Assembly: GCF_024499055.1 (NCBI RefSeq)
Contig: NZ_CP071249.1
Span: 124,001 to 188,000, forward strand
Reading direction: 5' to 3'
Length of the DNA stretch: 64,000 bases
Origin: Turicibacter bilis
Lineage (GTDB): Bacteria > Bacillota_I > Bacilli_A > MOL361 > Turicibacteraceae
Part shown: piece by piece, positions 43,621 through 60,457 of the stretch
Position numbering within the stretch: position 1 is the first letter of the stretch
Layout: the number at the start of each line of letters is the position of its first letter
Notes under the pieces: generated by a model
Seen by the model: the letters and a program-made list of their open reading frames with translations, nothing else
Told to the model about the DNA's origin: nothing
The model's database searches: none
Made by a program: the position numbers and the translations under genes

Positions 43621-44313
43621 ATGGAAGTAGTAAATGCGGAAACATTACGTCATATTGAATTATTTTCGAGTATTAAACAGGAAAGTATGGATGAATTATT
43701 AGAGTGTATGAGAGTTGCTAAGTATAAAAAAGGGTGCTATATCTTTAGAGATAAAGAGTTAATCGATCAAGTTTTTATTGTCTTAAGTGGGAAGGTATCG
43801 ATTTATAAACTGAGTGAAGTTGGAGAAAAACGAGTCATTTTTATCTTAGATAAAGGACATTTGCTCAATGATAATCTAACGAATCAACTTCCATGCGCAA
43901 TTGACTGTGAATGTTTTGAAGCTTCTACTATCCTTATTTGTTCAAAAGAGAAATTTATTAAAATCATGGAGAATGACTTTGCTTTAACTCAAGCTGTTAT
44001 AAATCAATATTGTTCGAAGTTAAGACGAACGTATCGGCAATTAAAAAATGCTCCAACTAATATAGCGATGGAACGAAAGTTAGCCGCAAAGTTATATCGT
44101 TTATGTCGAGATTATGGAGTGCAAATTGATCAGGGTTATTTAATTGACTTACCTTTAACGGTTTCCTATTTATCTCAATTATTAGGAGCACAGCGTGAAA
44201 CTGTTTCAAGGGCTTTAAAAAAATTAATAGCGGCTAATTTAGTTGAATATGAAAATAAAAAAATTAAAGTTATCTCCATTGAAGCTTTAGGTGCATACCA
44301 TAAAAATATATAA
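43621..44313 (+). CDS. Crp/Fnr-family regulator
   Basis: The 230-residue protein has an N-terminal cyclic-nucleotide-like beta barrel (FRDKELIDQVFIVLSGKVSI) and a C-terminal winged helix with TVSYLSQLLGAQRETVSRAL. Seven Cys occur, including a QLPCAIDCECFE cluster near residues 92-103, so redox or iron-sulfur sensing is possible. The arrangement is unlike the classical Fnr N-terminal cluster. It lies directly before asrABC, with two Crp-type boxes in the gap. It is the likely activator of sulfite or nitrate respiration genes. GAAGGAG precedes the ATG. Confidence 0.88.
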   Translation: MEVVNAETLRHIELFSSIKQESMDELLECMRVAKYKKGCYIFRDKELIDQVFIVLSGKVSIYKLSEVGEKRVIFILDKGHLLNDNLTNQLPCAIDCECFEASTILICSKEKFIKIMENDFALTQAVINQYCSKLRRTYRQLKNAPTNIAMERKLAAKLYRLCRDYGVQIDQGYLIDLPLTVSYLSQLLGAQRETVSRALKKLIAANLVEYENKKIKVISIEALGAYHKNI

Positions 44314-44442: not shown

Positions 44443-45450
44443 ATGGGGTTAATTATGGCAAGGGCTAATTTCAATGAAGTTTTAGAAGAATTAGCAAAAA
44501 AGTATGTAATTTATGCACCAAAGAAGTATGAAGGAGAAGGAACTTTCTCAGATACGCACCGTGTTCGTTACGGGGAAATCAAATGTATTGAGGAAATTGA
44601 ATTTAATGAAAAATCAAGTTTTTCGTACAAAGAGGTATTATTACCAATTACACAAACATTATTCTTCTTTACAGAAACAGAAGTCAAAGAAGCGTCAATG
44701 AATGAACAAAACCTTTTAATCTTCTTACGTAGTTGTGATCTACATGCAGTTCGTCGTCTAGATGAGATTTATTTACGCAATGGTTTTGAAGATATTTATT
44801 ACAAAAAATTCCGCGAGAAAGCAAAATTTGTTGTCATGGGATGTGAAAAAAGCTTTAATAACTGTTTTTGTGTCGATATGGGAACGAATACGTGTGATCA
44901 TTATGAGGCGTATATTCATTTAGCAGAAGATCAAGTGGCATTTGATATTAAATGCGAAGAACTATTATCAGATGCAAAACTTAAAGCGATGGAGACGACT
45001 GAAGTCACACCAAAATTCGTGACAGAAAATCCAGTTCATGTTGAGATTCCTGAAAAATTAGATTTACGAATTATCTATTCTGACATGTGGGAAGAGTATA
45101 GTGAGCGTTGTATTGCTTGTGGACGTTGTAATTTTGTGTGTCCAACGTGTACATGCTTTACGATGCAAGACATTTTCTATCAAGACAATCATAAATGTGG
45201 AGAGCGACGCCGTGTATGGGCATCATGTCAAGTAAATGGATATACAGATATGGCTGGCGGACATAAGTTCCGTGAAAATAAAGGACAACGCATGCGATTT
45301 AAAGTGATGCATAAAATTTACGACTTTAAAAAACGTAATGGATATCATATGTGTGTGGGTTGTGGTCGTTGTGATGATGTTTGTCCAGAATATATTTCGT
45401 TCTCTAACTGTATTAACAAACTAGGGAAAGCAATGGATGAGGTGGAATAA
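44443..45450 (+). CDS. asrA: Anaerobic sulfite reductase subunit A
   Basis: The 335-residue iron-sulfur subunit passes electrons to the siroheme subunit. It ends with two ferredoxin-type clusters: CIACGRCNFVCPTCTC (about residues 222-237) and CVGCGRCDDVCPEY (about 303-316). The N-terminal half has LRSCDLHAVRRLDEIYL, typical of AsrA. GAGGT lies upstream; a second in-frame ATG (44455) is possible. It overlaps asrB by one base. The complex reduces sulfite to sulfide in the cytoplasm. Confidence 0.94.
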   Translation: MGLIMARANFNEVLEELAKKYVIYAPKKYEGEGTFSDTHRVRYGEIKCIEEIEFNEKSSFSYKEVLLPITQTLFFFTETEVKEASMNEQNLLIFLRSCDLHAVRRLDEIYLRNGFEDIYYKKFREKAKFVVMGCEKSFNNCFCVDMGTNTCDHYEAYIHLAEDQVAFDIKCEELLSDAKLKAMETTEVTPKFVTENPVHVEIPEKLDLRIIYSDMWEEYSERCIACGRCNFVCPTCTCFTMQDIFYQDNHKCGERRRVWASCQVNGYTDMAGGHKFRENKGQRMRFKVMHKIYDFKKRNGYHMCVGCGRCDDVCPEYISFSNCINKLGKAMDEVE

Positions 45451-46244
45451 TGACAGTAAATGAGTATATCCCGTTTTTATCAGAAATCAAAGATGTAATT
45501 CAGCATACTGAAATCGAGTTTACATTCCGTATGGCTTATCAAGGTGAGGTTAAACCTGGTCAATTTTTTGAAGTTTCACTTCCAAAATACGGTGAAGCTC
45601 CAATTTCAGTAAGTGGCATTGGTGAAGACTATGTTGATTTAACAATTCGTAAAGTTGGAAAAGTAACAAATGAAATCTTTAATCACTATAAAGGACAACA
45701 TTTATTCTTACGAGGACCATATGGAAATGGTTTTGATGTGGCAAACTATGAAGGAAAAGAATTAATTGTCGTAGCTGGAGGAACGGGATTATCTCCAGTT
45801 CGTGGTGTGGTTGATTATTTCGCAACAGATGCTAGTCGATCAAATGGATTTACCTTAATCACAGGATTCAAATCACCAGAAGATGTCTTATTCAAAGCTG
45901 ATTTAGCTAAATGGCGCGAAACATCAGAAGTCATTCTAACGGTTGATAAAGCAGAAGAAGGTTATGAAGGACATGTTGGATTAGTTACAAAATTTATTCC
46001 AGACTTACCGATTAAAAACTTAGATGATGTTCAGGTCATTGTCGTTGGACCTCCAATGATGATGCATTTTACTGTCCAAGAGTTCTTAAAACGTGGAATT
46101 GCTGAACAAAATATTTGGATTTCGCAAGAACGTAAAATGTGCTGTGGAATTGGAAAATGTGGTCACTGTAAAATTGATGACACCTACATTTGCCTAGAAG
46201 GTCCAGTATTTAATTACACTAAAGGGAAAGATTTAATTGACTAA
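45450..46244 (+). CDS. asrB: Anaerobic sulfite reductase subunit B
   Basis: The 264-residue flavoprotein resembles dihydroorotate dehydrogenase electron-transfer subunits: an FAD domain (EAPISVSGIG, GPYGNGF), NAD-binding VVAGGTGLSPVRG and a 2Fe-2S site near the end, KMCCGIGKCGHC followed by C about eleven residues on. It takes electrons from NADH for AsrA. The start overlaps the asrA stop, indicating coupling. Confidence 0.94.
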   Translation: MTVNEYIPFLSEIKDVIQHTEIEFTFRMAYQGEVKPGQFFEVSLPKYGEAPISVSGIGEDYVDLTIRKVGKVTNEIFNHYKGQHLFLRGPYGNGFDVANYEGKELIVVAGGTGLSPVRGVVDYFATDASRSNGFTLITGFKSPEDVLFKADLAKWRETSEVILTVDKAEEGYEGHVGLVTKFIPDLPIKNLDDVQVIVVGPPMMMHFTVQEFLKRGIAEQNIWISQERKMCCGIGKCGHCKIDDTYICLEGPVFNYTKGKDLID

Positions 46245-46257
46245 GGAGGGTGTCAGC

Positions 46258-47229
46258 ATGGATGTGAATACTAAGCTTTTAAAGAAAAATGCATTTCGTG
46301 TAACGAAGCATCGTGGAATTACAGCTTCTCGTGTTAGGGTTCCAGGTGGAGCGCTTCAAGCTGAATATTTATTGAAAATTTATGAAATTGCTAATACGTA
46401 TGGAAATGGTGCTGTTCACCTTACCACACGTCAAGGATTTGAAATCCCTGGTATTAAATTTGAAGACATTCCGAAAGTCAATGAGTTATTACAGCCAATT
46501 ATCGAAGGGCTAGATATTAATCAAGAGATTCCTGGAAAAGGATATACAGCAGCTGGAACACGAAATGTATCAGCTTGTATTGGTAATAATGTGTGTCCTT
46601 TTGCAAACTACAATACGACAAACTTTGCTAAACGTATTGAAAAAGCAGTTTTTCCTAATGATTTACACTTTAAAATTGCTTTAACAGGGTGCCCTAATGA
46701 CTGTATTAAAGCACGTATGCATGACTTTGGAATTATTGGGATGACTAAGCCTCAGTATGACAAAGATCGTTGTGTTTCGTGTGGGGCTTGTGTTCGTGCT
46801 TGTAAGAAAAAAGCAACAGGTGCTTTATCATCTGTGAATTATAAAGTTGAACGTGATCATTCAAAATGTATCGGATGTGGAGAATGTGTGATTAACTGCC
46901 CAACAGCAGCATGGACGCGCAGCAAAGAAAAGTACTATCGTTTAGCCATTATGGGACGTACAGGTAAGAAAAATCCACGTTTAGCAGAAGACTTTATTGT
47001 TTGGGCAGATGAGGATAGCATCATTAAAATTATCCAAAATACATATAAGTATGTAACAGAGTATATCGCAAAAGATGCACCTGGTGGAAAAGAACACATT
47101 GGTTACATCGTGGATCGTACAGGATTCATGGAGTTTAAAAAATGGGTACTTGAAGATGTTAACTTAGGTGAAGATGCGATTGTTAAGCATAATATTTACT
47201 GGAGTGGGATTCGCTACGTTCAAAATTAA
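46258..47229 (+). CDS. asrC: Anaerobic sulfite reductase subunit C (siroheme)
   Basis: The 323-residue catalytic subunit has the siroheme/4Fe-4S motif: CIGNNVCPFA then TGCPNDC (together four Cys), with basic residues for sulfite in LTTRQGF. An inserted ferredoxin domain follows with CVSCGACVRACKK and CIGCGECVINCP. It produces sulfide. ATG 46258 after AAGGAGGG is chosen over the upstream frame that overlaps asrB. Confidence 0.94.
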   Translation: MDVNTKLLKKNAFRVTKHRGITASRVRVPGGALQAEYLLKIYEIANTYGNGAVHLTTRQGFEIPGIKFEDIPKVNELLQPIIEGLDINQEIPGKGYTAAGTRNVSACIGNNVCPFANYNTTNFAKRIEKAVFPNDLHFKIALTGCPNDCIKARMHDFGIIGMTKPQYDKDRCVSCGACVRACKKKATGALSSVNYKVERDHSKCIGCGECVINCPTAAWTRSKEKYYRLAIMGRTGKKNPRLAEDFIVWADEDSIIKIIQNTYKYVTEYIAKDAPGGKEHIGYIVDRTGFMEFKKWVLEDVNLGEDAIVKHNIYWSGIRYVQN

Positions 47230-47300: not shown

Positions 47301-49388
47301 ATGAAAAAAGTACAGTCGACATGTAATTATTGTTCATTAGCTTGTAATATCGATTACATCGTAGAAGAGAACAAAATTGTAAAAGTCATTCCGACAAAAG
47401 GCTATCCAGTTAATAATGGATTCTCATGTATTAAAGGATTAAATTTAGATAAACAGCACTCAGTTTATAAAGCAAATCCATTACCACGTATTAAAAAAGA
47501 AGATGGAACATTTGAACATGTTTCATGGAATGAAGCTTTTACTTACACAGCCAATAAATTAAAAGAAATCCATGAACAATATGGTCCAGAAAGTATTGCC
47601 GGAATCAGTACCGGACAATTAACGCTAGAAGAAATGGCGTTATACGGACATGTCATGCGTAACTTCTTAAAAGCTAACGTAGATGGAAATACACGCTTAT
47701 GTATGGCGACGAGTGTTGTAGCACATAAACAAAGTTTTGGATTTGACGCACCACCATATACATTAAATGATTTAGAATTATCAGATACAATCATTTTAAT
47801 CGGAGCAAATCCAGTGGTTGCTCATCCAATTCTTTGGGGACGTATTAAAGCGAACAAAATTGAAGGTAAAAAAGTGATTGTTATTGATCCACGTTATACA
47901 GAAACAGCAAAACGTGCCGATCATTTCTACCGTTTAAAAGCAAAATCTGATTTAACGTTATTATATACATTAGCTCATGTATTAATTGAAAAAAATTGGA
48001 TTGATGCAGCATACATTGAAAACCATACAGAAAAGTTTGAAGAATTCAAAACATTTGTTAAAGAGTTTACATTAGATAAAGTTGAAGAGAAAACAAACTT
48101 AACAGCTGAACAAGTATTAGAATTAGCAACAATGATTCATGAAGGAAAAGCTGTTTCACTTTGGTGGACAATGGGAATTAACCAAGGATATGAAGCGGTG
48201 CGTAATGCGCAAGCTATTATCAATATTGCCTTAATGACAGGAAATATGGGACGTCCTGGTACAGGAGCGAACTCAATTACTGGTCAAAGTAATGCCATGG
48301 GATCACGTTTATTCAGTAATACAGCTGGTTTATACGGTGGGGGAGATTATGATAATCCAGTTCGTCGTCAAGCAGTAGCAGAAGCATTAGGAATCGATGA
48401 ATCATGGTTACCATCTAAACCAACGTTACCATACAATGCGATTATCGAAAAAATTAATGCTGGAGAAATTAAAGCATTATGGGTTCTTTGTACAAATCCA
48501 CGTCACTCATGGATTAATAATGAAACATTCAAAGAGGCAATGGACAAATTAGATTTATTCATCGTTCAAGATATTTATGACGATACAGATAGCTCAGAAG
48601 ATTGTAGTGTCTTCTTCCCAGTTGTACCTGGAACGAAAAAAGAAGGAACATTAATCAATACGGAACGTCGTTTATCTGCTGTACGCCCGGCTTTATTAAT
48701 GGAAGAAAATGAAATGACTGATTTCAATGTTATTTTAAATGTTGGTAAAGCACTTGGAATGGGGGATTTACTTGATGGATGGAAAACACCTCAAGAAGTC
48801 TTTGAAAAAATGAAAAAATGTTCAAAAGGAATGCCATGTGATATTACAGGTGTTGATTATAATGCTTTAGTGGATTCAAAAGGAATTCAATGGCCATTTA
48901 AAGAAGGGGACACTTTAACAGAAAATGAGCGCCGTTTATTTGAAGATGGACAATTCTATACACCAAGTAAAAAAGCTCAATTTATGTTTGAAGCTGTTAC
49001 AGAAAATCCATTACAATTAACTGAAGAATTCCCATATGTTTTCAATACAGGACGTGGAACAGTCGGTCAATGGCATACACAAACACGTACACGTGAAATT
49101 GCTTTTGTTAATGATGCAGTTTCACACGTTGCATATGTTCACATCAATGAAGAGTTAGCGAAAGATTTAGGAATTAAGCATCAAGAAATGATTGAAATTA
49201 CATCAATTAATGGTGTGACACGTCGTTTCATGGCGATGGTTTCAGATACAGTGGCATACAACGAATTATTTGCTCCAATTCACTATATTGAGACAAATGC
49301 CTTAACACCATCTGTTTATGATCCATATTCAAAAGAACCTTCATATAAGAGTACACCAGTACAAATTAATAAAGTGAAAGGGGCTTAA
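47301..49388 (+). CDS. narB: NarB/NasC-type molybdopterin oxidoreductase (candidate nitrate reductase)
   Basis: The 695-residue enzyme belongs to the DMSO-reductase family. An N-terminal 4Fe-4S site (C8, C11, C15, C43) precedes the two MGD-binding domains. RLCMATSVVAHKQSFG supplies Cys134 as molybdenum ligand, the hallmark of periplasmic/assimilatory nitrate reductases, unlike the Ser or SeCys of other members. GANPVVAHPILWGRIK, TGQSNAMGSR and the end GQWHTQTRT agree. There is no Tat signal, so it is cytoplasmic. It is followed by a ferredoxin and a flavin reductase as in clostridial NarB loci. Nitrate is likely, but other oxyanions are possible. Confidence 0.82.
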   Translation: MKKVQSTCNYCSLACNIDYIVEENKIVKVIPTKGYPVNNGFSCIKGLNLDKQHSVYKANPLPRIKKEDGTFEHVSWNEAFTYTANKLKEIHEQYGPESIAGISTGQLTLEEMALYGHVMRNFLKANVDGNTRLCMATSVVAHKQSFGFDAPPYTLNDLELSDTIILIGANPVVAHPILWGRIKANKIEGKKVIVIDPRYTETAKRADHFYRLKAKSDLTLLYTLAHVLIEKNWIDAAYIENHTEKFEEFKTFVKEFTLDKVEEKTNLTAEQVLELATMIHEGKAVSLWWTMGINQGYEAVRNAQAIINIALMTGNMGRPGTGANSITGQSNAMGSRLFSNTAGLYGGGDYDNPVRRQAVAEALGIDESWLPSKPTLPYNAIIEKINAGEIKALWVLCTNPRHSWINNETFKEAMDKLDLFIVQDIYDDTDSSEDCSVFFPVVPGTKKEGTLINTERRLSAVRPALLMEENEMTDFNVILNVGKALGMGDLLDGWKTPQEVFEKMKKCSKGMPCDITGVDYNALVDSKGIQWPFKEGDTLTENERRLFEDGQFYTPSKKAQFMFEAVTENPLQLTEEFPYVFNTGRGTVGQWHTQTRTREIAFVNDAVSHVAYVHINEELAKDLGIKHQEMIEITSINGVTRRFMAMVSDTVAYNELFAPIHYIETNALTPSVYDPYSKEPSYKSTPVQINKVKGA

Positions 49389-49389
49389 T

Positions 49390-49800
49390 ATGAAACGTAT
49401 TAAGATTGATAGAAGTAAATGTATTAGTTGTTTAACTTGTGTCACAGCTTGCGTCGTGTCTCACGAAAGCTGTGATTCAAGAAACCGTGTGGTTGTTGAT
49501 AGCGAAGGAAAAAATTCACCAATTTTCTGTCGTCATTGTGATTTACCTGAATGTGTTTATACATGTATGACAGGTGCAATGTCTAAAGATAAAGAAACTG
49601 GTTATGTTCAATATGATGGAACACGTTGTGCAAGTTGCTATATGTGTATCATGGCATGTCCTTATGGGGTTTTAAAAGCAGATCGCTTAAAACAAAAATA
49701 TATTATGAAATGTGATATGTGTACATCACATGATGCAAAAACTCCACAATGTGTGGCGAACTGCCCAATGGAAGCTATTACACTTGAGGAGGTAAAGTAA
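49390..49800 (+). CDS. 4Fe-4S ferredoxin subunit of the molybdoenzyme
   Basis: The 136-residue protein has four ferredoxin-type Cys groups: CISCLTCVTAC, CRHCDLPECVYTC, CASCYMCIMAC and CDMCTSH...CVANCP, the pattern of HycB/DmsB-type electron carriers with up to four clusters. It starts one base after the molybdoenzyme gene and is followed after one base by the flavin reductase gene, so it surely relays electrons between them. Confidence 0.9.
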   Translation: MKRIKIDRSKCISCLTCVTACVVSHESCDSRNRVVVDSEGKNSPIFCRHCDLPECVYTCMTGAMSKDKETGYVQYDGTRCASCYMCIMACPYGVLKADRLKQKYIMKCDMCTSHDAKTPQCVANCPMEAITLEEVK

Positions 49801-49801
49801 G

Positions 49802-51034
49802 ATGAATTATGTAGTTGTAGGTGCCTCAGCAGCAGGAGTCAATGGAGTTAAATATATTCGTCAACTAGAACCGGATGCAAATATTACCTTAATTTCAAAG
49901 GACGAGCATATTTATTCACGTTGTATTTTACATCATTACTTAGAAGGAATTCGCGATATTAAAGCGTTAGAATTCGTAGAAGATGGATTTATTGAAAAAA
50001 ATAATATTAACTGGATTAAAGGGGTTGGGGTTGAAAAAATCGAACCAAAACAAAAAGAATTAATTTTATCTGATGGACGTACGGTGTCATATGACAAAGT
50101 CTTATTAGCAACAGGTGCATCAACCTTCTTCCCACCAGTTAAAAACTTAAATGATGCAAAAAATGTCTTTGGATTAAGAAACTTAGATGATGCGATTGAA
50201 ATTAAAGAAAAAGCTCAATATGCAAAAAACATCGTCGTGATGGGAGCAGGACTTGTTGGAATTGATGCTTTAACGGGATTATTACATTATGGAAAGAATT
50301 TAACATTAGTTGAGTTCAAAGGACATATGTTATCAATTCAGTTAGATAAACGTGCAGCTAAAACATATCAAGATGCGTTTACAAATGAGGGAGTAACGCA
50401 ATATTATGATACAGCCGTTCAAGAAGTGATCATGGATGAAACAGGGGCTGTCAAAGCATTAGCTTTATCGAATGGATTAATTATTGACTGTGATTTCTTA
50501 ATCGTCGCAACAGGTGTTCGTTCAAATGTTGCTTTCTTACAAGATAGTGGCATTGAATGCGATCGTTTCGGATTAATCTTTGATGAGTATGGACGCACAA
50601 GTGATGAATCTGTTTACGGTGCAGGAGATATTTCAGGACGTAATCCAATTTGGCCAGCTGCTGTAAAAGAAGCCATTATCGCAGCAACAAATATGTGTGG
50701 ACATAAACGTGAATTAACTGATTTCTTTGCAAGTAAATCAACCATGAATTTCTTACATATTCCAACCATGTCACTTGGAACACCAGAACCAGCTGATGAA
50801 ACTTATAAAGTTGACATTGAAGAAGACGGGCAAGGAAACTATAAAAAAATTATTCATAAAGACGGTGTCATTTATGGAGCTCTTATTCAAGGAGACTTAT
50901 CATATAGTGGTGTATTAACGCAGTTAATTAGAGAAAAGATTAATATTGATAAGGTTGAAAAATCAATCTTTAAAATCGATTATTCGGATTTCTTCCACTT
51001 AACAGATAACTGCCAATTTACATACAATGATTAA
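49802..51034 (+). CDS. NAD(P)H-dependent FAD oxidoreductase, electron donor to the molybdoenzyme
   Basis: The 410-residue flavoprotein has the pyridine nucleotide-disulfide fold: VVVGASAAG (FAD), LLATGAST, VVMGAGLVGIDA (NAD(P)) and VYGAGDIS. It resembles the reductase parts of nitrite and rubredoxin reductases. The C-terminal about 70 residues (IYGALIQGDLSYSGVLTQLI) are of the NasB type. Tight spacing with the ferredoxin gene shows a dedicated donor. It lacks siroheme or nitrite-reducing domains. Confidence 0.87.
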   Translation: MNYVVVGASAAGVNGVKYIRQLEPDANITLISKDEHIYSRCILHHYLEGIRDIKALEFVEDGFIEKNNINWIKGVGVEKIEPKQKELILSDGRTVSYDKVLLATGASTFFPPVKNLNDAKNVFGLRNLDDAIEIKEKAQYAKNIVVMGAGLVGIDALTGLLHYGKNLTLVEFKGHMLSIQLDKRAAKTYQDAFTNEGVTQYYDTAVQEVIMDETGAVKALALSNGLIIDCDFLIVATGVRSNVAFLQDSGIECDRFGLIFDEYGRTSDESVYGAGDISGRNPIWPAAVKEAIIAATNMCGHKRELTDFFASKSTMNFLHIPTMSLGTPEPADETYKVDIEEDGQGNYKKIIHKDGVIYGALIQGDLSYSGVLTQLIREKINIDKVEKSIFKIDYSDFFHLTDNCQFTYND

Positions 51035-51059
51035 TTGACACGAGGAGAGAATTTTACTG

Positions 51060-52007
51060 ATGAAAACTTTATTACAAAAGATTGCTAACTTACCGGTTGG
51101 AGCAATTGCAACGATGGTAGGGTTAGCAACCCTTTCTAATATGTATGCCTCATTAGGATATTCAGGGATTAAACATATTACGATGTTTGTAGGAATTTTA
51201 GTATGGGCAGCAGCGTTCTTAAAACTAACTGTTCATTTCCAAATATTTAAAAAAGAATATGCAAATGTTGTTCCAGCAAGTTTATATGCGGCATTTACGA
51301 TGTTAACGATGATTTTAGGGAGCTATATCTTTACTTATTCTCCTGCTATCGGTAAAGGAATCTGGTTAACAGGTGTTGTATTACATTTCATTCATATTTT
51401 AATTTTCACGTATCGAAATGTGATCAAAGGTGTAAATAAAGACACATTTGTTCCAACATGGTTTGTCACTTATAATGGATTCTTAGTTTCTGCGGTAGTC
51501 GGAACAGGGATGAATATGCCAGGCTTATTAAAAATTATTGCTATTTATGGAATCATTGTTTTCCTAATGATTATTCCATTCATGATCGTTCGCATGATTC
51601 GTCGTCCATTACCAGCACCATTAACTCAAACAGCAGCAATTTTATTAGCGCCAAGTAGCTTATGTTTAGTTGCTTACTTAAATGCCTTTGCTACTCCAAA
51701 TGCAATCGTGGTTTATGGATTATATGCAGCTATATTTGCGACATTAATCTTCATACTAATTAATATTCCTAAATTCTTTAAGTTTGAATTCCATCCTGGT
51801 TTTGCAGCGTTAACATTCCCATTAGCGATTGGTGTCGTTGCATCAACCAAAATGGCTGGATATTTAACAGCACAAGGATTTGAAGTATTCGGATTATTTG
51901 TGAAAGAAGTTTCAGGAATCCAGTTATACGCGACAACGATTATTATTGGATTTGTTGCTTATAACTTTGTTCGACTGTTAGTTCGTTCATATCAAAAACA
52001 AAACTAA
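51060..52007 (+). CDS. TDT-family anion channel (TehA/SLAC1/Ssu1-type)
   Basis: The 315-residue membrane protein has about ten helices and the tellurite-resistance/dicarboxylate transporter pattern: NLPVGAIATMVGLATLSNMY at the start, VVLHFIHILIF and PALTFP-like FAALTFPLAIGVVASTK. Relatives move sulfite (Ssu1), nitrate, chloride or malate. Its place between sulfite reductase, the nitrate-type reductase and cofactor genes suggests nitrate/nitrite or sulfite traffic. Substrate is inferred only. Confidence 0.8.
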   Translation: MKTLLQKIANLPVGAIATMVGLATLSNMYASLGYSGIKHITMFVGILVWAAAFLKLTVHFQIFKKEYANVVPASLYAAFTMLTMILGSYIFTYSPAIGKGIWLTGVVLHFIHILIFTYRNVIKGVNKDTFVPTWFVTYNGFLVSAVVGTGMNMPGLLKIIAIYGIIVFLMIIPFMIVRMIRRPLPAPLTQTAAILLAPSSLCLVAYLNAFATPNAIVVYGLYAAIFATLIFILINIPKFFKFEFHPGFAALTFPLAIGVVASTKMAGYLTAQGFEVFGLFVKEVSGIQLYATTIIIGFVAYNFVRLLVRSYQKQN

Positions 52008-52009
52008 AT

Positions 52010-52130
52010 AACCCAAAGTAACCGAGCAAAAATACCTAAGGAGTGTCTCTACGGTATTGAGCCTAAGTCTTTAGATGACTTACAGGGTTGAGCGAGAAAT
52101 CAATCAGCCTTCCACATTTGAAAAGGTGAA
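52010..52130 (+). ncRNA. structured leader RNA, candidate molybdenum-cofactor riboswitch
   Basis: AACCC (52010-52014) pairs with GGGTT (52085-52089) and encloses two hairpins: AATACC/GGTATT (52031-52036, 52053-52058) and TAAGTC/GACTTA (52064-52069, 52077-52082). TGACTTA (52076-52082) is also complementary to TAAGTCA (52147-52153), the 5' arm of the terminator that follows. Such a switch between two partners is typical of riboswitch expression platforms. The position before molybdopterin genes suggests Moco as ligand. I could not confirm a match to the known Moco motif. Confidence 0.62.
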
Positions 52131-52131
52131 G

Positions 52132-52195
52132 TTAATTTAAAATTGTTAAGTCAATTTGCCTTTTTATCATGCGCAAATTGACTTTTTTAAATTAA
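52132..52195 (+). terminator. long terminator hairpin before the cofactor operon
   Basis: AAGTCAATTTGC (52148-52159) pairs perfectly with GCAAATTGACTT (52173-52184), then six T. The outer arms TTAATTTAAAA (52132-52142) and TTTTAAATTAA (52185-52195) are also fully complementary. It ends just before the ribosome binding site of the next gene. Confidence 0.88.
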
Positions 52196-52210
52196 CGATT
52201 GGAGGATAAT

Positions 52211-53236
52211 ATGAAAAAAATTAAAACAATTGATGCGGTAGGTCATGTTTTATGTCATGATATTACGCAAATTATTAAAGATGTTAAAGATGGACCGGTT
52301 TTTAAAAAAGGTCATGTTGTTCGTGAAGAAGATATTGAAGTCTTGTTATCTGTAGGGAAAGACCATCTGTATATTTATGAAGCGGATGAATCGATGCTTC
52401 ATGAAAATGATGCGGCAGATATTTTATATAACGTTTGTAAAAATGACTACATGAAACCAACAGAAGTTAAAGAAGGAAAAATTGAAGTCATTGCGACAGA
52501 AGGTGGACTTTTAAAAGTTGATATCGATCGCTTACAACAGATTAACGAAATCGGTGAAATCATTATTGCCACACGTCATAATAACACCGTGATTAAGGCA
52601 AATGACAAATTAGCGGGAACGCGAATTATTCCCCTCATGATTCACAAGGATAAGTTAGAACAGGTAAAAGCGATTCATAATGAACAGCCACTTCTTGAAA
52701 TTAAGCCATTCCATCATTTCAAAGTCGGAGTCATTACAACAGGAAATGAAGTTTATTATGGACGTATTAAAGATACGTTTACACCTGTGATTAAAAATAA
52801 ATTAGCGAAATATAATTTAGAGATTAATCATCATATCATTGTGAATGATGATATTGAAAAAATTCAAGCTGCCATTTCAGAATGTCGTGACTTAGGAATG
52901 GAGCTTATCATTTGTACAGGTGGAATGAGTGTGGACCCTGATGATTTAACACCAGGAGCAATTAAAGCATCAGGAGCAGAAATTTTAACATATGGTGCAC
53001 CTGTATTACCGGGAGCAATGTTCTTACTTGGATATTTTGAAGATAAAACACCAATCGTTGGATTACCAGGTTGTGTCATGTATGCGAAGGCGACAAGTTT
53101 TGATTTAATGTTCCCTCGTATTTTAGCAAAAGATACGATTACAAAGAAAGAAATCGCAGCATTAGGACATGGTGGACTTTGCTTAAAATGTCCAGTTTGT
53201 ACGTTCCCACACTGTGAATTTGGAAAGGGTAGCTAA
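52211..53236 (+). CDS. Molybdopterin-binding protein (MoeA/MogA-like domain)
   Basis: The 341-residue protein has a MoCF-type domain near residues 175-290 with GVITTGNEVYYGRI, LIICTGGMSVDPDDLTPGAI and VGLPGCVMY, as in MoeA and MogA. The N-terminal part resembles MoeA domain I only loosely. The end carries a Cys-rich tail, CLKCPVCTFPHC, seen in clostridial members. It heads the cofactor operon. ATG 52211 follows TTGGAGGA. Its exact step, possibly molybdate insertion or cofactor delivery, is unknown. Confidence 0.83.
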   Translation: MKKIKTIDAVGHVLCHDITQIIKDVKDGPVFKKGHVVREEDIEVLLSVGKDHLYIYEADESMLHENDAADILYNVCKNDYMKPTEVKEGKIEVIATEGGLLKVDIDRLQQINEIGEIIIATRHNNTVIKANDKLAGTRIIPLMIHKDKLEQVKAIHNEQPLLEIKPFHHFKVGVITTGNEVYYGRIKDTFTPVIKNKLAKYNLEINHHIIVNDDIEKIQAAISECRDLGMELIICTGGMSVDPDDLTPGAIKASGAEILTYGAPVLPGAMFLLGYFEDKTPIVGLPGCVMYAKATSFDLMFPRILAKDTITKKEIAALGHGGLCLKCPVCTFPHCEFGKGS

Positions 53237-53237
53237 A

Positions 53238-54443
53238 ATGGAACGAATTACATTAGAACAAGCGATTGAAGTATTAGTTCAGCAGACTAAAAAACAAACG
53301 AAAACAAAGACTGTATCTGTATTCGAGGCGTTAAACCAAGTATTAGCTCATGATGTATATGCCCCTATTAATGTGCCATCTTTTAATCGTTCAGCAATGG
53401 ATGGATATGCGGTAAAAGCTTCAGAAACTGCAGGTGCAAGTCATGAAACGCCTATTAAGTTGCAAGTCATCAAGCAACTCATGGCAGGAGATTATGCTCA
53501 GTTAAAAGCAGAATCGAATCAAGCGGTTCTTGTCATGACCGGTTCTTATATTCCAGATGGTTTTGATGCAGTCATTCGTCAAGAGGATACAAATTACGGA
53601 GATGAAGTCGTTGAGCTTTACGCGAGTGTGAAGCCATTTATGAATTATAGTGCGATTGGAGAAGATATTAAACAAGGTCAGTTAATGCTTCAAGCAGGAA
53701 CCGTTTTAACGCCGATTCATCTAGGCATTTTAGCTAGTTTAGGAATGGAGAAAGTGGAGGTATTAGCCCCAATTAAGGTCGGATTGATTAGTAGTGGCAG
53801 TGAATTAGCCGAGGCACCTGAGGCGTTAAAACCGGGACAAATTTATGATAGTAATCGATTTGTCTTAACGTCACGTTTAAAGCAGTTAAATGTTGAAGTT
53901 GTTTTCTCTAAAAAAATTAGTGATGATCCAACTGCCGTTGCATGCTTTATTAAAGAACAAATGAAAAACGTTGATTTAGTGATTACAACAGGTGGCGTTT
54001 CAGTGGGTAAAAAAGATATTATGCATGAAGTGATTTCACAGCTGGAGGCCAATCGTTTATTTTGGCGAATTAATATGCGTCCAGGAACGCCAGTTCTTGC
54101 AAGTCTTTATCAAGATAAATTAATGTTAGGGCTATCCGGAAATCCATTTGCCGCTCTTACAACTTTTGAATTATTATTCCGTCCAATCCTTTCACAAGCT
54201 ATGCATACGAATACGTATACTTGTGTGAGAAAACAGGCACGATTTAAAGGGACATTTAATAAAGGAAGCAAACAACGTCGCTTTATTCGAGCTTATTATG
54301 AGGATGGCGTTGTTAGTATTCCAACAGGAGAACATGCTTCATCGGTTTTATCGAGCATGTTAGGATGTAATTGTTTCATTGATATTGAAGCTGGAAATGC
54401 TGGATTAGCAGAAAATGAAACGGTTGAAGTCGTTTTACTTTAA
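53238..54443 (+). CDS. moeA: Molybdopterin molybdenumtransferase MoeA
   Basis: The 401-residue enzyme inserts molybdate into adenylylated molybdopterin. It shows the MoeA pattern VPSFNRSAMDGYAVK, MTGSYIPDGFDAVIRQED, GLISSGSELAE, VITTGGVSVGKKD and GLSGNPFAALTTFE, with domain IV at the end. Only one base separates it from the upstream stop. GGAAAGGG precedes ATG 53238. Together with the preceding protein it completes the late cofactor steps. Confidence 0.94.
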   Translation: MERITLEQAIEVLVQQTKKQTKTKTVSVFEALNQVLAHDVYAPINVPSFNRSAMDGYAVKASETAGASHETPIKLQVIKQLMAGDYAQLKAESNQAVLVMTGSYIPDGFDAVIRQEDTNYGDEVVELYASVKPFMNYSAIGEDIKQGQLMLQAGTVLTPIHLGILASLGMEKVEVLAPIKVGLISSGSELAEAPEALKPGQIYDSNRFVLTSRLKQLNVEVVFSKKISDDPTAVACFIKEQMKNVDLVITTGGVSVGKKDIMHEVISQLEANRLFWRINMRPGTPVLASLYQDKLMLGLSGNPFAALTTFELLFRPILSQAMHTNTYTCVRKQARFKGTFNKGSKQRRFIRAYYEDGVVSIPTGEHASSVLSSMLGCNCFIDIEAGNAGLAENETVEVVLL

Positions 54444-54461
54444 ATAAATGGAGGTCATAGG

Positions 54462-54950
54462 ATGAGCGATAAATTAACACATTTTAACGAAGAAGGGCAT
54501 GCCATTATGGTCGATGTCACAGATAAAGTGGCGACACAACGAGAAGCCGTTGCGAAAGGAAAAATTGTTGTGAGTCAGGAGATTATCGATCGCATTAAAA
54601 ATAATGAGATTGAAAAAGGAGACGTTCTTGGAATTGCTCGAATTGCTGGGATCATGGCTGTTAAGAAAACATCTGAACTCATTCCTTTATGTCATCCATT
54701 ATTTATTAGTAAATGTGCCATTGATTTTGAAATTAATGAAGCAGAAAGTTATATTGAAGCGAGCTGTACGGTGAAAGTGGATCAAAAAACAGGCGTTGAG
54801 ATGGAAGCTTTAACCGGGGTTAATATCGCTTTATTAACGATTTATGATATGTGTAAAGCCATTGATAAAAAAATGGAGTTAACAGATATTCGTTTATGTT
54901 ATAAATCAGGTGGTAAAAGTGGTGTCTTCGTCAATGAAGAAAGATCATAA
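54462..54950 (+). CDS. moaC: Cyclic pyranopterin monophosphate synthase MoaC
   Basis: The 162-residue enzyme acts with MoaA to make cyclic pyranopterin monophosphate from GTP. Catalytic motifs are present: MAVKKTSELIPLCHPL, VKVDQKTGVEMEALTGV, and MCKAIDKKMEL with a following KSGGKSG. Its last 17 bases overlap modB, so both are translated together. TGGAGGT precedes the start. Confidence 0.95.
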   Translation: MSDKLTHFNEEGHAIMVDVTDKVATQREAVAKGKIVVSQEIIDRIKNNEIEKGDVLGIARIAGIMAVKKTSELIPLCHPLFISKCAIDFEINEAESYIEASCTVKVDQKTGVEMEALTGVNIALLTIYDMCKAIDKKMELTDIRLCYKSGGKSGVFVNEERS

Positions 54951-55710
54951 ATGGTTACGCCTTAACTATGTTTTCACGTTGACTTTTACAGTTCTACCGT
55001 TTTTAGCATTTATTATAAGAGGACGTCTGGTTGAATTTAATGCGTTGGATTGGCAGGTCATTAGTTCGAGTCTATGGGTGAGCCTGAAATGTAGTCTGAT
55101 TGCGATGCTCATTGTCATCCTTCTTGGACTTCCAACGGGTTATTATATCGCTAGACATTCCTTTAAATATAAAATTTTTTTTGATACTTTGTTTAATCTG
55201 CCGATGATTTTACCTCCCGCCGTCATCGGATTATTACTGCTTTTGACCTATGGAAGTCATGGGTTTATCGGACGCTATCTGTTAGCGATGGGGATCAAAA
55301 CAAGTTTCTCTTCATTCGCTGTTATTTTGACATTTATCTTTGTGTCATTACCTGTTTTTATTAAAGGGGTTAGTGTCGCCTTTTCAGAGGTGGATGAGCA
55401 GTTAGAAACGACTGCACGCATTCTTGGAGATTCCCCGCTTCAAGTGTTTAAACGAATCACATTTCCTCTTGCTAAAAAAGGACTTATTGTTTCGTTATTA
55501 ATGGCTTGGACACGAGGTCTATCTGAGTTTGGAGCAACGATTATGTTTGCTGGAAATTTAAAAGGAGTGACGCAAACTTTACCACTTGCCATTTATTCAG
55601 CAATGGAATCAAATATGAATAATGCATTATTCATTTCATTTTTCATGTTTATCCTTGCCTTACTCGTTTTAGTGAGCACGCATCTTTTAAGTGAGGAGCG
55701 TGATACTTAA
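54934..55710 (+). CDS. modB: Molybdate ABC transporter permease
   Basis: The 258-residue protein has about six membrane helices and the permease loop RILGDSPLQVFKRITFPLAKKG that contacts ModC. NLPMILPPAVIGLLLLLTYG is typical of ModB. It starts inside moaC (ATG 54934) and overlaps modC by one base. It forms the channel of a molybdate importer with ModC and ModA. Confidence 0.92.
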   Translation: MKKDHKWLRLNYVFTLTFTVLPFLAFIIRGRLVEFNALDWQVISSSLWVSLKCSLIAMLIVILLGLPTGYYIARHSFKYKIFFDTLFNLPMILPPAVIGLLLLLTYGSHGFIGRYLLAMGIKTSFSSFAVILTFIFVSLPVFIKGVSVAFSEVDEQLETTARILGDSPLQVFKRITFPLAKKGLIVSLLMAWTRGLSEFGATIMFAGNLKGVTQTLPLAIYSAMESNMNNALFISFFMFILALLVLVSTHLLSEERDT

Positions 55711-56732
55711 TGTTTCATATTTGTATTAATCATTTGATTCATGACACTTTAACAATAGAGGCGGAATTTGAATTAAAAGCGGGAGAAATTACAACGCTTA
55801 TTGGAAAAAGCGGATCAGGAAAATCTAGTCTTTTAAATTTAATCACAGGTGTTATTCATGGAAAAAATGTTCAAATAAAAAGTGATACGGTGACGTATCA
55901 GGATATTCAGACAGGGACGTTTATCCCGGTTCATGAGCGAAAGTTTGGGTATATTCAACAAAAGGCTCAGCTGTTTTCCCATTTAAGTGTTTGGGAAAAT
56001 CTGACGTATAGTCGAGTGCCCCTGGATGAGAAAAAACTTGAAGACTATCTCGATATCTTTGAGTTACGTCCACATCTTAATAAGCGAGTTCGTGAACTTT
56101 CCGGTGGAGAAGCTCAACGTGTTTCAATCGTTCGAACATTGATGAGTGAACCAGAGTTGTTACTCATTGATGAAGGCTTTAGCGCGCTCGATCCAAATTT
56201 GAGATTAAAACTAAGAGATTATTTACAGACATTAAAAAAAGAATTAAATATTCCGATCTTATTTGTGACTCATGATTTATATGAAGCGTATCAATTAAGT
56301 GATTACGTGTTATTTATTGAGAATGGAAAACTAATTGAACAAGGGACGAAGAAACAGATGTTTCATTTCCCGAGTAACATTAAAACTGCCCGCTTTATTG
56401 GGGTTGAAAATATTTTCAAAGCGTCTAGTGAAGATGGGCAGTTGAAGATTGATGAACGATTATTTGAAGTTGATGTTTCAAATGTTCAAGTGAAGTCTAT
56501 TGGGATTAAAGCGACTCATGTCAGTATTCATGAGGAGGGGTTACCTGCACACGTAGAAAAAGTGATCGATGATTTGACATCCGTGACCATTTATTTAAGA
56601 CTTAATGGACTTCATCATCCTTTATTGATGAAACTCTCACCGCTTGAAGCAGCAAAGCATCATCTTCATCTTCATCAACAGCTTAACGTTAAGATTCATC
56701 AATTTATTTTTTTGGAGGGTCATTGTGATTAA
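55710..56732 (+). CDS. modC: Molybdate ABC transporter ATPase
   Basis: The 340-residue ATPase has Walker A GKSGSGKSS, signature LSGGEAQR, Walker B LLIDEGFSALD and the His switch FVTHD. After about residue 230 follows a C-terminal TOBE-like domain (SIGIKATHVSIHEEG) that binds oxyanion in ModC proteins. It starts on the modB stop (TAATG) and its end overlaps the mobAB gene by eight bases. Confidence 0.92.
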   Translation: MFHICINHLIHDTLTIEAEFELKAGEITTLIGKSGSGKSSLLNLITGVIHGKNVQIKSDTVTYQDIQTGTFIPVHERKFGYIQQKAQLFSHLSVWENLTYSRVPLDEKKLEDYLDIFELRPHLNKRVRELSGGEAQRVSIVRTLMSEPELLLIDEGFSALDPNLRLKLRDYLQTLKKELNIPILFVTHDLYEAYQLSDYVLFIENGKLIEQGTKKQMFHFPSNIKTARFIGVENIFKASSEDGQLKIDERLFEVDVSNVQVKSIGIKATHVSIHEEGLPAHVEKVIDDLTSVTIYLRLNGLHHPLLMKLSPLEAAKHHLHLHQQLNVKIHQFIFLEGHCD

Positions 56733-57810
56733 CTTAAGTACAGCTATTCTAGTCGGTGGAAAGAGCCGTCGGATGAATGGTGAAAATAAATCATTTTTAA
56801 TGTATCAAAATCAAACGTTTATCGAACGAATGATAACTCAATTAAAACCTTTTGATGAATTACTTATTTCCGTTCGAGAACGTGAACCATATGAAAAACT
56901 AGGCTATCCACTGATTCAAGATGTTTATGAAAATATTGGACCACTTTCTGGTTTATATGAGTGTCTGAAAATCTGTCGACAGGAGTATTTATTTGTTTGT
57001 GCGACAGATATGCCAAAGCTAACAACCGAATTAATTTTATATATGCAACAATTTATTAGTTCTGATTATGATTGTTATGTGATTGAAGCGGGAGGCAAAC
57101 GACATCCATTATGTGCCATTTATAAAAAGTCATTATTGCCGATAATTGAAGAAATGATAGAGAAGAAGGAACACCGATTAATGCAATTGCTTAATCGAGC
57201 GAAAACTAAAGTGATTTCTCTTGAATACAGTTGTTTTGATGAATCTGTCGTCATGAACGTTAATACAAAAGAGGAGTTTGATGTATTAAAAGAACCAGCC
57301 ATATTTTGTGTCAGTGGGATTAAAAATAGTGGGAAAACCACGTTGATTACGAAAATTATTAAACAATTAACAGATAGAAATTATCGTGTTGGTGTCATTA
57401 AACACGATGGTCATGAATTTGAAATCGATGTTGAAAATACTGATACGCATAAACATCGATTGGCTGGGAGTACGGGAACGATTATTTATTCAAAAACCAA
57501 ATATGCTGTCATGAAAGATTGGTCTGTGATTGATTTAGAGTTATTAATCTCCTACTTATCTGATTTAGATGTCATCATTATGGAGGGAATGAAACATTCG
57601 TCTTATCCTAAAATAGAGGTGGTTAGAGAAGGACGATCGAATGAGATTGTCTGTGATCCCAACACATTACTAGCTATTGCAACCAACACAAATTTAACGC
57701 ATGAAAGTGTTGATGTCGTCTCATTAGATGATATCGATCAAATCATGGATGTGATTGATAGAAAGGTTCTAGGTGGAAAAAATGCGAGATCAATATCAAC
57801 GAAAAATTGA
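56725..57810 (+). CDS. mobAB: MobA-MobB fusion for guanine-dinucleotide cofactor
   Basis: The 361-residue protein fuses two steps. Residues 1-190 are MobA, the GTP:molybdopterin guanylyltransferase (AILVGGKSRRMNGENKSF, CATDMPKL). Residues about 195-361 are MobB, a GTP-binding P-loop protein (VSGIKNSGKTTL, VGVIKHDGHEF, DVIIMEGMKHS). GTG 56725 after TTGGAGGG is the start. MobA makes the bis-MGD form needed by the molybdoenzyme at 47301, so the locus fits that enzyme. Its end overlaps moaA by 29 bases. Confidence 0.92.
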   Translation: MINLSTAILVGGKSRRMNGENKSFLMYQNQTFIERMITQLKPFDELLISVREREPYEKLGYPLIQDVYENIGPLSGLYECLKICRQEYLFVCATDMPKLTTELILYMQQFISSDYDCYVIEAGGKRHPLCAIYKKSLLPIIEEMIEKKEHRLMQLLNRAKTKVISLEYSCFDESVVMNVNTKEEFDVLKEPAIFCVSGIKNSGKTTLITKIIKQLTDRNYRVGVIKHDGHEFEIDVENTDTHKHRLAGSTGTIIYSKTKYAVMKDWSVIDLELLISYLSDLDVIIMEGMKHSSYPKIEVVREGRSNEIVCDPNTLLAIATNTNLTHESVDVVSLDDIDQIMDVIDRKVLGGKNARSISTKN

Positions 57811-58750
57811 TTATGTCCGCATCTCAATTACGGATCGTTGTAATTTAAGATGTACGTATTGTATGCCAGGTGAAGAAGTTGACTTTATTCATCATGAGAA
57901 GTTACTGAGCACCGAAGAGATTTTAAAGATTGTTAAAGCGTTTGAAGAATTAGGCGTGACTAAAGTCAAGATTACAGGTGGAGAACCGCTTGTTCGTAAA
58001 GATATTATTGAACTGATTGCAAGCATTAAGAAAATGGCTGGAATACAAGAAGTAAGTATCACAACAAATGGTGTCTTACTCGAAAAAATGATAGATGATT
58101 TAGAGCAAGCTGGGCTTGATAGTATCAATATTAGTTTAGATACATTAAAACCTGCTCAGTATGCACTCATGACGCGTCGAAATCAATTTGATATCGTCAT
58201 GCGAGGAATTCAGTGTGCGATTAAGAGTTCTATTCCTAAAGTTAAATTAAACTGTGTCCTGATTAAGGAGATTAATGGGGATGAGATTTTAGATTTAGTC
58301 GAACTAGCTCATCAAACTCGTGTACATGTTCGTTTTATTGAATTAATGCCGATCGGTTATGCAAAGAATTTAACACCGATTTCCGAAGATGAGGTCCTTG
58401 ATTTATTAAGTAAGCATTATGAAGGCGTTAAACCATTTGAAGGGAAACTAGGAAATGGGCCAGCTCATTACTATGAGATTGAAGGATTTTTAGGAAAAGT
58501 TGGCTTTATTTCAGCGATGAGTCATCGTTTCTGTTCAACATGTAATCGAGTTCGCGTAACGAGTGAAGGATATTTAAAAACGTGCCTTCACTTTAAAAAA
58601 GGAATCGATTTAAAAGCTCATATTGCCACAGGCAATTTAAAGGAAGCAATTTTAGAAAGTTTACAAAAGAAACCAAAGCAACACCAGTTTAATGAAGTAT
58701 TAAATGAAGAAGAAGTTGACCAACGAATGATGGTTCAAATAGGAGGATAA
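57782..58750 (+). CDS. moaA: GTP 3',8-cyclase MoaA
   Basis: The 322-residue radical-SAM enzyme starts molybdopterin synthesis from GTP. The first cluster site is CNLRCTYC (about residues 20-27), the second is in FCSTCNRVRVTSEGYLKTC, and the protein ends in Gly-Gly as required for activity. ATG 57782 is chosen because AGGTGG lies just before it; the upstream GTG is inside that site. It follows mobAB with overlap and MOSC one base later. Confidence 0.95.
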   Translation: MRDQYQRKIDYVRISITDRCNLRCTYCMPGEEVDFIHHEKLLSTEEILKIVKAFEELGVTKVKITGGEPLVRKDIIELIASIKKMAGIQEVSITTNGVLLEKMIDDLEQAGLDSINISLDTLKPAQYALMTRRNQFDIVMRGIQCAIKSSIPKVKLNCVLIKEINGDEILDLVELAHQTRVHVRFIELMPIGYAKNLTPISEDEVLDLLSKHYEGVKPFEGKLGNGPAHYYEIEGFLGKVGFISAMSHRFCSTCNRVRVTSEGYLKTCLHFKKGIDLKAHIATGNLKEAILESLQKKPKQHQFNEVLNEEEVDQRMMVQIGG

Positions 58751-58751
58751 C

Positions 58752-59192
58752 ATGGGAAAAGTACATGCAATTTGTATTAGTGAAAAAAAAGGAACACAAA
58801 AATCATTTATTGAAGAAGCAACATTTATTGAGAATTTTGGAATTGAAAATGATGCGCATGCAGGAAAATGGCATCGACAAGTTTCGTTATTAGCTTATGA
58901 AAAAATTGCTGATTTCAATTCACGCGGGGCCGAAGTTAAGGATGGAGCGTTTGGTGAAAATTTAGTTGTCGAAGGCATTGATTTTACGTCACTTCCAATT
59001 GGAACTATTTTTAAATGTAATGAGGTAGAGTTAGAGTTAACTCAAATCGGTAAAGAATGTCATCATCATTGTTTAATTTATTATAAAATGGGAGAATGTA
59101 TCATGCCTAAAAATGGAGTGTTCACTCGTGTATTAAAAGGTGGCGTTATCCGAGTAGGCGATGAGATGACGTATGAGTTACCAGTCGAGTAG
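58752..59192 (+). CDS. MOSC-domain protein
   Basis: The 146-residue protein is a stand-alone MOSC domain: ENDAHAGKWHRQVSLLAYE, DGAFGENLVVEG, and the conserved Cys in IGKECHHHCLIYY. MOSC domains bind or transfer sulfurated molybdenum cofactor. Here it probably acts as cofactor carrier or chaperone. It lies one base after moaA. Confidence 0.9.
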   Translation: MGKVHAICISEKKGTQKSFIEEATFIENFGIENDAHAGKWHRQVSLLAYEKIADFNSRGAEVKDGAFGENLVVEGIDFTSLPIGTIFKCNEVELELTQIGKECHHHCLIYYKMGECIMPKNGVFTRVLKGGVIRVGDEMTYELPVE

Positions 59193-59211
59193 AAAGCGAG
59201 AGATTTTAACA

Positions 59212-59967
59212 ATGAAAAAATGGTGGTTAAGCTTATTAATCGGTTGTTTATTAGTCGGATGTAGTCAAAAGCAAGAACCAACCGTTGAACTCAATGTCTC
59301 AGCTGCTTCTTCATTACAAGAAGCAATGCAAGAAATTGCAGCTGATTTCATGGAACTCTATCCTAATGTAAAGGTTCAATTGAATTTTGGCGGATCGAAT
59401 GTTCTAAAAACACAAATTGTTGAAGGATTTGATGTGGATTTATTTTTATCAGCGAATTTTAAACAATATGATGAACTCGTGCAGTTAGGAAAAATTGAAG
59501 CGGGTTCATTATTTGCAACCAATCGTGTCGTTATTGTGACAAATAATCATCAAGTTCAAAGTGTTTATGATTTGGCTAAACCAAATCTTCAAGTGGTACT
59601 TGCTAATGAATCGGTCCCAATTGGTCAATATGCAGCATCGATTATTGATTCAATTGATGAGAATGAACCAGGATTTAAAGCAGCCATTGATCAAAATATT
59701 GTGTCGCGTGAAGAAAATGTTCGCCAAGTGTTGATGAAAATCACCTTAAATGAAGGCGATGCTGCTTTTGTTTATCAAACGGATTTAACACCAGACGTTA
59801 ACGATCAAGTAACTGTCGTTTATCTTCCGAATGAGTATGATGTGATTAGCGAATACTACATGGGAATCATTAAACAAAATGAAGTGAAGAAAGAAGCCGA
59901 GCAATTATATGACTATATTTTATCAGATGCCGGTCAAGAGGTTTTAAAATCATATGGATATGAATAG
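59212..59967 (+). CDS. modA: Molybdate-binding lipoprotein
   Basis: The 251-residue protein begins with a lipoprotein signal ending LLVGC (about residue 17) and has the ModA pattern: VSAASSLQEAMQEIA, LNFGGSNVLKTQI, VDLFLSAN and QYAASIID. It captures molybdate outside the cell for ModBC. It is separated from modBC by mobAB, moaA and MOSC, an unusual order. The end overlaps mogA by 14 bases. Confidence 0.92.
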   Translation: MKKWWLSLLIGCLLVGCSQKQEPTVELNVSAASSLQEAMQEIAADFMELYPNVKVQLNFGGSNVLKTQIVEGFDVDLFLSANFKQYDELVQLGKIEAGSLFATNRVVIVTNNHQVQSVYDLAKPNLQVVLANESVPIGQYAASIIDSIDENEPGFKAAIDQNIVSREENVRQVLMKITLNEGDAAFVYQTDLTPDVNDQVTVVYLPNEYDVISEYYMGIIKQNEVKKEAEQLYDYILSDAGQEVLKSYGYE

Positions 59968-60457
59968 AATTCAAGCAGCTATTATTACCATGTCTGATTC
60001 ACGTTCACAGTCAACTGAAAAAGCAGATGAAAGTGGAGCAGTGATTAAAGAAATTTTAGAAGCCAATGATTATGAAGTGGTTCATTATGAACTGATTAGT
60101 GATGATTTAGATGGAATTAAAAATAGTTTAATTCGCGTTTGTGATCAAAATATTAGTTTAGTTTTAACGACAGGTGGAACAGGACTGTCTAAACGAGATA
60201 ATACCCCTGAAGCGACAAAAGCAGTCATTGAAAAAGAAGTTCAAGGAATTAGTGAAGCGATGCGTTATCATAGCTTACAAATTACTCCACGTGCCATGCT
60301 ATCACGTGGAGTATCGGGTATTCGTCAAAATTCATTAATTATTAATCTGCCAGGAAGCCCGAAAGCAGTTCGAGAAAATTTAGAGTATATTATTCCTTCA
60401 CTTCGCCATGGATTAGAAATTTTACGTGGAGAAGCGAGTAATTGCGCTGGAAAATAA
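59954..60457 (+). CDS. mogA: MogA/MoaB-type molybdopterin adenylyltransferase
   Basis: The 167-residue enzyme activates molybdopterin with ATP before metal insertion by MoeA. It has the motif LVLTTGGTGLSKRDNTPEAT, with ISEAMRYHSLQITPRAML and NLPGSPKAVRE. MogA and MoaB are hard to tell apart by sequence, but the operon role is the same. It is the last gene of the operon; a terminator follows. Confidence 0.9.
   Translation: MDMNRIQAAIITMSDSRSQSTEKADESGAVIKEILEANDYEVVHYELISDDLDGIKNSLIRVCDQNISLVLTTGGTGLSKRDNTPEATKAVIEKEVQGISEAMRYHSLQITPRAMLSRGVSGIRQNSLIINLPGSPKAVRENLEYIIPSLRHGLEILRGEASNCAGK

Follow-up and report, generated by a model that had tools for sequence, protein, structure and literature searches.

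Free molybdenum cofactor (Moco) is unstable, and the ligand of the Moco riboswitch class (RF01055) is hard to test in vitro. According to Regulski et al. (2008, PMC2408646), the E. coli member of this class is a Moco-dependent OFF switch that requires the stem P3, this stem goes with Moco rather than with tungsten cofactor, and members of the terminator type exist. The E. coli moaA Moco riboswitch modulates transcription termination on the evidence of RNA-seq (TaRTLEt, PMC12121620). The leader analysed here, from Turicibacter bilis, resembles the class as presented in PMC2408646 in its full aptamer with P3, GAAA tetraloop and receptor-like bulge, in its place ahead of genes for Moco synthesis and molybdate transport, and in its terminator platform, which is reported there for some members. 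The E. coli copy tested in that paper was interpreted there as masking its ribosome binding site within P1. The present leader differs in having an intrinsic terminator as its output and an aptamer that directly follows an upstream gene's stop codon. With the riboswitch of PMC12121620 it shares the link of the class to termination control, but that one belongs to another organism, and the accessible part of that source describes no intrinsic terminator/antiterminator layout for it. The class, the association of P3 with Moco, the terminator-type members and the finding that the E. coli copy is an OFF switch are already in PMC2408646. We add which strand serves as antiterminator, and that the aptamer is placed behind the stop codons of upstream genes; in the accessible class literature, the original supplementary alignments aside, we found no description of either.

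A scan of the whole window (the full stretch of 64,000 nucleotides) against Rfam 15 gave one match in total, to the RF01055 covariance model at 52008-52144 on the forward strand, with 70.6 bits (E 5.3e-15) against a gathering score of 36. All of positions 1-135 of the model are aligned there, and the 2.79-Mb genome holds only this copy. A permissive Rfam scan of 46-62 kb found no second RNA element apart from a chance match. The original prediction had proposed either a known Moco riboswitch or a divergent one, to be told apart with the Rfam riboswitch models; the former is what the single full-length match gives, and the divergent reading is superfluous because the model is aligned over all its 135 positions. 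RF01055 is present in 4 of 8 genomes of the family and order and in 15 of 395 genomes sampled from the class, and a phylum-level search yielded no additional loci. The 216-nt leader stretch folds at -53.2 kcal/mol (z -3.9), which none of 200 shuffles equalled. A multistem leader is thus real, but the earlier description of a closing helix with two hairpins was an undercount, as the alignment and the predicted folds give an architecture from P1 to P5, P3 included.

The outer P1 helix has its predicted 5' strand, AAATAAC and neighbours, at 52004-52012; it pairs with GTTAATT at 52131-52137 and overlaps the upstream stop codon TAA at 52005-52007. The closest relative with the same layout, the leader L002, keeps this helix by different letters, TAATC/GATTA on reading. 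P1 is weak in our leader, the inner helix being only ACC (52021-52023, from alignment and predicted fold) on GGU (52125-52127), with mismatches. P2 (52035-52054) carries a bulge resembling a GAAA-tetraloop receptor, made of CCUAAG at 52035-52040 and UACGG at 52050-52054, where UAUGG is usual, and P4 (52085-52111) has the GAAA tetraloop at 52096-52099, so that both the GNRA tetraloop and its receptor bulge are present. The P3 hairpin (52064-52082), the mark of the Moco type, is formed by TAAGTC (52064-52069) and GACTTA (52077-52082).

RF01055 covers both ligands, and the enzyme encoded nearby is similar to formate dehydrogenases, which include tungsten-dependent ones, so the aptamer could in principle sense tungsten cofactor. 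We consider this very unlikely, since P3 is present, which PMC2408646 links to Moco, and the operon holds genes for a transporter of the ModA, ModB and ModC type, of which ModA and ModB pass curated cut-offs; the surveyed members that lack P3 (L009, L012, L014, L015 and others) stand, as judged by eye, before a different type of transporter. Molybdate itself, also suggested earlier as the signal, is unlikely in view of the genetic work on the E. coli riboswitch (PMC2408646). In the P3-less L009, L012, L014 and L015 (about 1501-1660) the following gene is substrate-binding-protein-like, possibly for tungstate uptake; the terminator begins inside the P1 3' region, and its loop holds CUCCUUUUU or CUUCUUUUU, complementary to AAAGGA(AG).

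The terminator itself (52148-52188, -13.6 kcal/mol by folding) has the twelve pairs that had been predicted, AAGTCAATTTGC at 52148-52159 with GCAAATTGACTT at 52173-52184, around a loop at 52160-52172, and ends in the U-tract TTTTTT at 52183-52188. The Shine-Dalgarno site of the ten-gene Moco/molybdate operon (GGAGG at 52201-52205, with the ATG of the first controlled gene at 52211) follows after 16 nt. A consensus terminator scanner did not report the hairpin at 52148-52184, probably because the loop is longer than the scanner limit of 8. The outer arms claimed around the terminator also exist in the fold, GTTAATTTAA at 52131-52140 with TTAAATTAAC at 52187-52196. They lie 3' of the U-tract, and can therefore not form ahead of the termination decision but only after read-through. 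These arms, extended to 52131-52142 and 52185-52196, could then fold by the Shine-Dalgarno site and control translation too, and their helix does belong to the most stable fold of the full leader and ends 4 nt before GGAGG. The Shine-Dalgarno sequence itself is however outside the helix and no outer arms were seen in L002, and we hold such a second level of control to be improbable.

A switch needs two folds that exclude each other, and both can be read in this leader. The original prediction pointed out that TGACTTA at 52076-52082 can pair either with TAAGTC at 52064-52069 or with TAAGTCA at 52147-52153, and took the latter, P3 3' strand on terminator arm, as the antiterminator. The three segments are all in place, the 7-nt complement is perfect, and in this leader alone the P3 3' segment reaches p=0.015 against the terminator arm. 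A complement of seven between anywhere in the aptamer and the terminator arm is found in 22% of shuffles, and one with the P3 3' arm alone in 0.45%. The predicted energies (nearest-neighbour, so that neither tertiary structure nor ligand enters) speak for another strand. With constraints, in the transcript ending at 52187, the state with P1 and terminator (OFF) has -41.9 kcal/mol, an antiterminator built from GAAAAGG of the aptamer and the P1 3' strand (52120-52142) with the terminator 5' arm and loop start (52146-52165, ending in AATTTGCCTTTTT) has -39.8, and the P3-based pairing has -32.7, that is 7-9 kcal/mol above both others. Ligand control needs two near-equal states; in the model P1 plus terminator against the GAAAAGG-based antiterminator fits this, and the P3-based state is far off. 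The P3-based pairing is also long-range and would have to compete with a local hairpin. When the structure was predicted for partial transcripts of increasing length, P1 was retained up to 52160, at 52165 the local hairpin won, with GAAAAGGUGAAGUUAAUUU (from 52120) on the stretch ending in UUUGCCUUUUU (52165), and at 52187 P1 and terminator were favoured again.

Relatives of the leader agree with this choice of strand. They comprise 21 leaders in which RF01055 stands before the same first gene and 15 loci from the class search, the window's own included; their terminators were located by folding, and those where none was found (L005-L007, L024, L067, L084) were left out. Measured by dinucleotide shuffles against the terminator 5' arm and loop, the segment of AAAGG and P1 3' strand has a mean z of -1.77 over 30 leaders, 13 of them with p<=0.05, against -0.7 (2 of 17) for the P3 3' segment and -0.1 (0 of 17) for P3 5'. 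After removal of closely similar leaders, we also exchanged terminator arms among the rest, as a control for composition. Matched arms were then better than swapped ones with p=0.0002 for the P1 3' segment (26 leaders), 0.08 for P3 3' and 0.39 for P3 5' (16 P3-containing leaders each), values that overstate independence because the leaders are related. A 16-nt window slid over the aptamer finds the strongest complementarity at GAAAAGG and the P1 3' strand, and a weaker second peak near the aptamer 5' part (offset -94, p 0.007), possibly P2. Both strands of the antiterminator vary: many leaders have UUGAAAAGG with CCUUUUU, L001 and L002 have GAAAAGGUGAA with UUUGCCUUUUU, L041 has GAAAAGGGGUA with UAUCCUUUUU, L003 and L004 have UUGGGAAGG with CCCAA, and L010 has GGAGCAGUC with GGCUGCUUU. 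By the shuffle measure L022, L028 and L057 have no good antiterminator. By these comparisons the choice of strand is conserved across relatives.

The proposed comparison of leaders from homologous operons gives the P1 3' pairing with changes on both strands, but no clear matched signal for the P3-based pairing, which is absent from L002 although the P1-type antiterminator is kept there. By energies and sequence comparison the antiterminator strand is GAAAAGG with the P1 3' strand and not the P3 3' strand, so that the wrong strand had been chosen at first, and an antiterminator made from P3 is highly improbable. P3 as switching helix was discarded from the energies and the comparison of relatives, in which its 5' strand gave no signal (p 0.39). 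In a single relative, L010 (1501-1720), the lead-in of the terminator, GATGCTTAAGG, matches by eye the complement of the P3 5' strand CCTAAGCATC except for a bulge, and an extra P3-based helix is possible there.

In classic P1-switching transcriptional riboswitches, aptamer and antiterminator share the closing helix's 3' strand. The leader studied here appears to use its closing-helix 3' strand in the same double way, but unlike the classic cases the predicted switching strand extends over the conserved AAAGG in the junction of the aptamer, and the terminator loop therefore often has CCUUU. For most of the surveyed terminator-type members, the comparison thus tells which strand is employed as antiterminator, and it points to concrete mutations.

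The ten controlled genes (52211-60457, forward strand) are, in order, a MoeA-like Cys-rich protein, moeA, moaC, modB, modC, a mobA-mobB fusion, moaA, a MOSC protein, modA and a mogA/moaB-type gene, which is the kind of operon that the class is expected to precede. A ligand-controlled terminator before Moco genes, the core of the original prediction, is supported by this set together with RF01055, and the layout is real and of a known kind because the full match, P3 and the terminator stand before a Moco/molybdate operon. Upstream and co-directional (47301-52007, forward strand) are genes for a molybdoenzyme (47301), an Fe-S protein, an FAD reductase and a transporter of SLAC1/TDT type. By sequence the molybdoenzyme is intermediate between formate dehydrogenases and nitrate reductases and stays below every curated cut-off, and it is the only Molydop_binding protein of the genome, so this organism has one such molybdoenzyme and one copy of the riboswitch. 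Further upstream, at 44443-47229 (forward strand), three genes resemble by eye an anaerobic sulfite reductase set (asrABC-like), preceded by a Crp/Fnr-type regulator at 43621.

The aptamer starts 1 base past the stop codon (52005-52007) of the SLAC1/TDT-type gene, and a search of the forward strand between 51029 and 52142 found no promoter-like site, with a regional site count not above that of shuffles. Since the aptamer adjoins the upstream stop codon and no such site lies between, the switch is most likely inside a longer transcript, and the leader is probably part of one shared with the upstream genes. It is a switch between the genes of one cluster and not clearly behind a promoter of its own. 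A comparably close position is seen in relatives, where the gap between aptamer and a co-directional stop codon is -2 to 16 nt in 11 of 26 leaders. The gene in front, named by eye from the proteins except in the window, is SLAC1-type in L001 and L002, mobA-like in L018, L019, L022, L024 and L084, mogA-like in L032, mobB-like in L003 and L004, and unassigned in L010. Many of these clusters may thus contain an intercistronic attenuator. We found no relevant literature on Turicibacter or on intercistronic riboswitches.

This placement, together with the weak P1 and the variant tetraloop receptor, could also mean that the riboswitch is degenerate, has lost Moco binding, and that the hairpin is a plain terminator of the upstream molybdoenzyme operon. 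The match is however full-length at 70.6 bits, the alternative helices are nearly isoenergetic and are preserved in L002, and between the terminator and the Moco genes no promoter-like site is better than a weak 9-of-12 match at 52143-52170, which makes a lost function hardly probable. Another possibility is that the riboswitch also senses upstream translation. Because the stop codon overlaps or adjoins the 5' strand of outer P1, a terminating ribosome could block P1 and favour the antiterminator. We regard this as rather unlikely, but if true, cofactor synthesis would be tied to active translation of the molybdoenzyme operon.

We conclude that this P3-containing member of RF01055, an ordinary terminator switch of the known Moco class, is very probably a transcriptional OFF switch with GAAAAGG and the P1 3' strand as antiterminator, and most likely intercistronic. 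Family membership, the alternative helices of near-equal predicted energy and the strand choice in relatives are what we observe; we infer that this copy binds the ligand, in which direction it controls, and that it is co-transcribed with the genes upstream. As the polymerase passes 52165, the new AATTTGCCTTTTT would capture GAAAAGG and the P1 3' strand, P1 would open, and with the local antiterminator hairpin formed the operon would be transcribed. With Moco bound, P1 and the GAAAAGG junction would be held in the aptamer, leaving the terminator 5' arm free to pair with 52173-52184 and to stop transcription at the U-tract. Plentiful cofactor would thus most likely halt transcription of the cofactor genes. 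The molybdoenzyme genes would be transcribed either way, and the genes for Moco and molybdate uptake added only at cofactor shortage, so that a switch inside such clusters could divide a single transcript into a form for the enzyme alone and one that has the cofactor genes as well. The leader is a clean and complete example of a rather little-studied class, with both competing folds readable.

The cofactor pathway downstream of the switch appears to have a gap. This complete genome gave no match to MoaE (PF02391) or to MoaD/ThiS (PF02597), although moaA, moaC, moeA, mogA-type and mobAB genes are present, and MoaE is missing from 32 of 33 further genomes, nearly all with the first gene or the riboswitch. 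Molybdopterin synthase may have a substitute here, and the first gene is one putative candidate for a role in molybdopterin synthesis. Its product (52211-53236, forward strand) has a MoeA-like domain after about 170 residues without Pfam match. A C-terminal CxxCxxCxxxxC is invariant in 68 of 68 sequences, as are C235 and C288, and these positions could form a metal or sulfur site.
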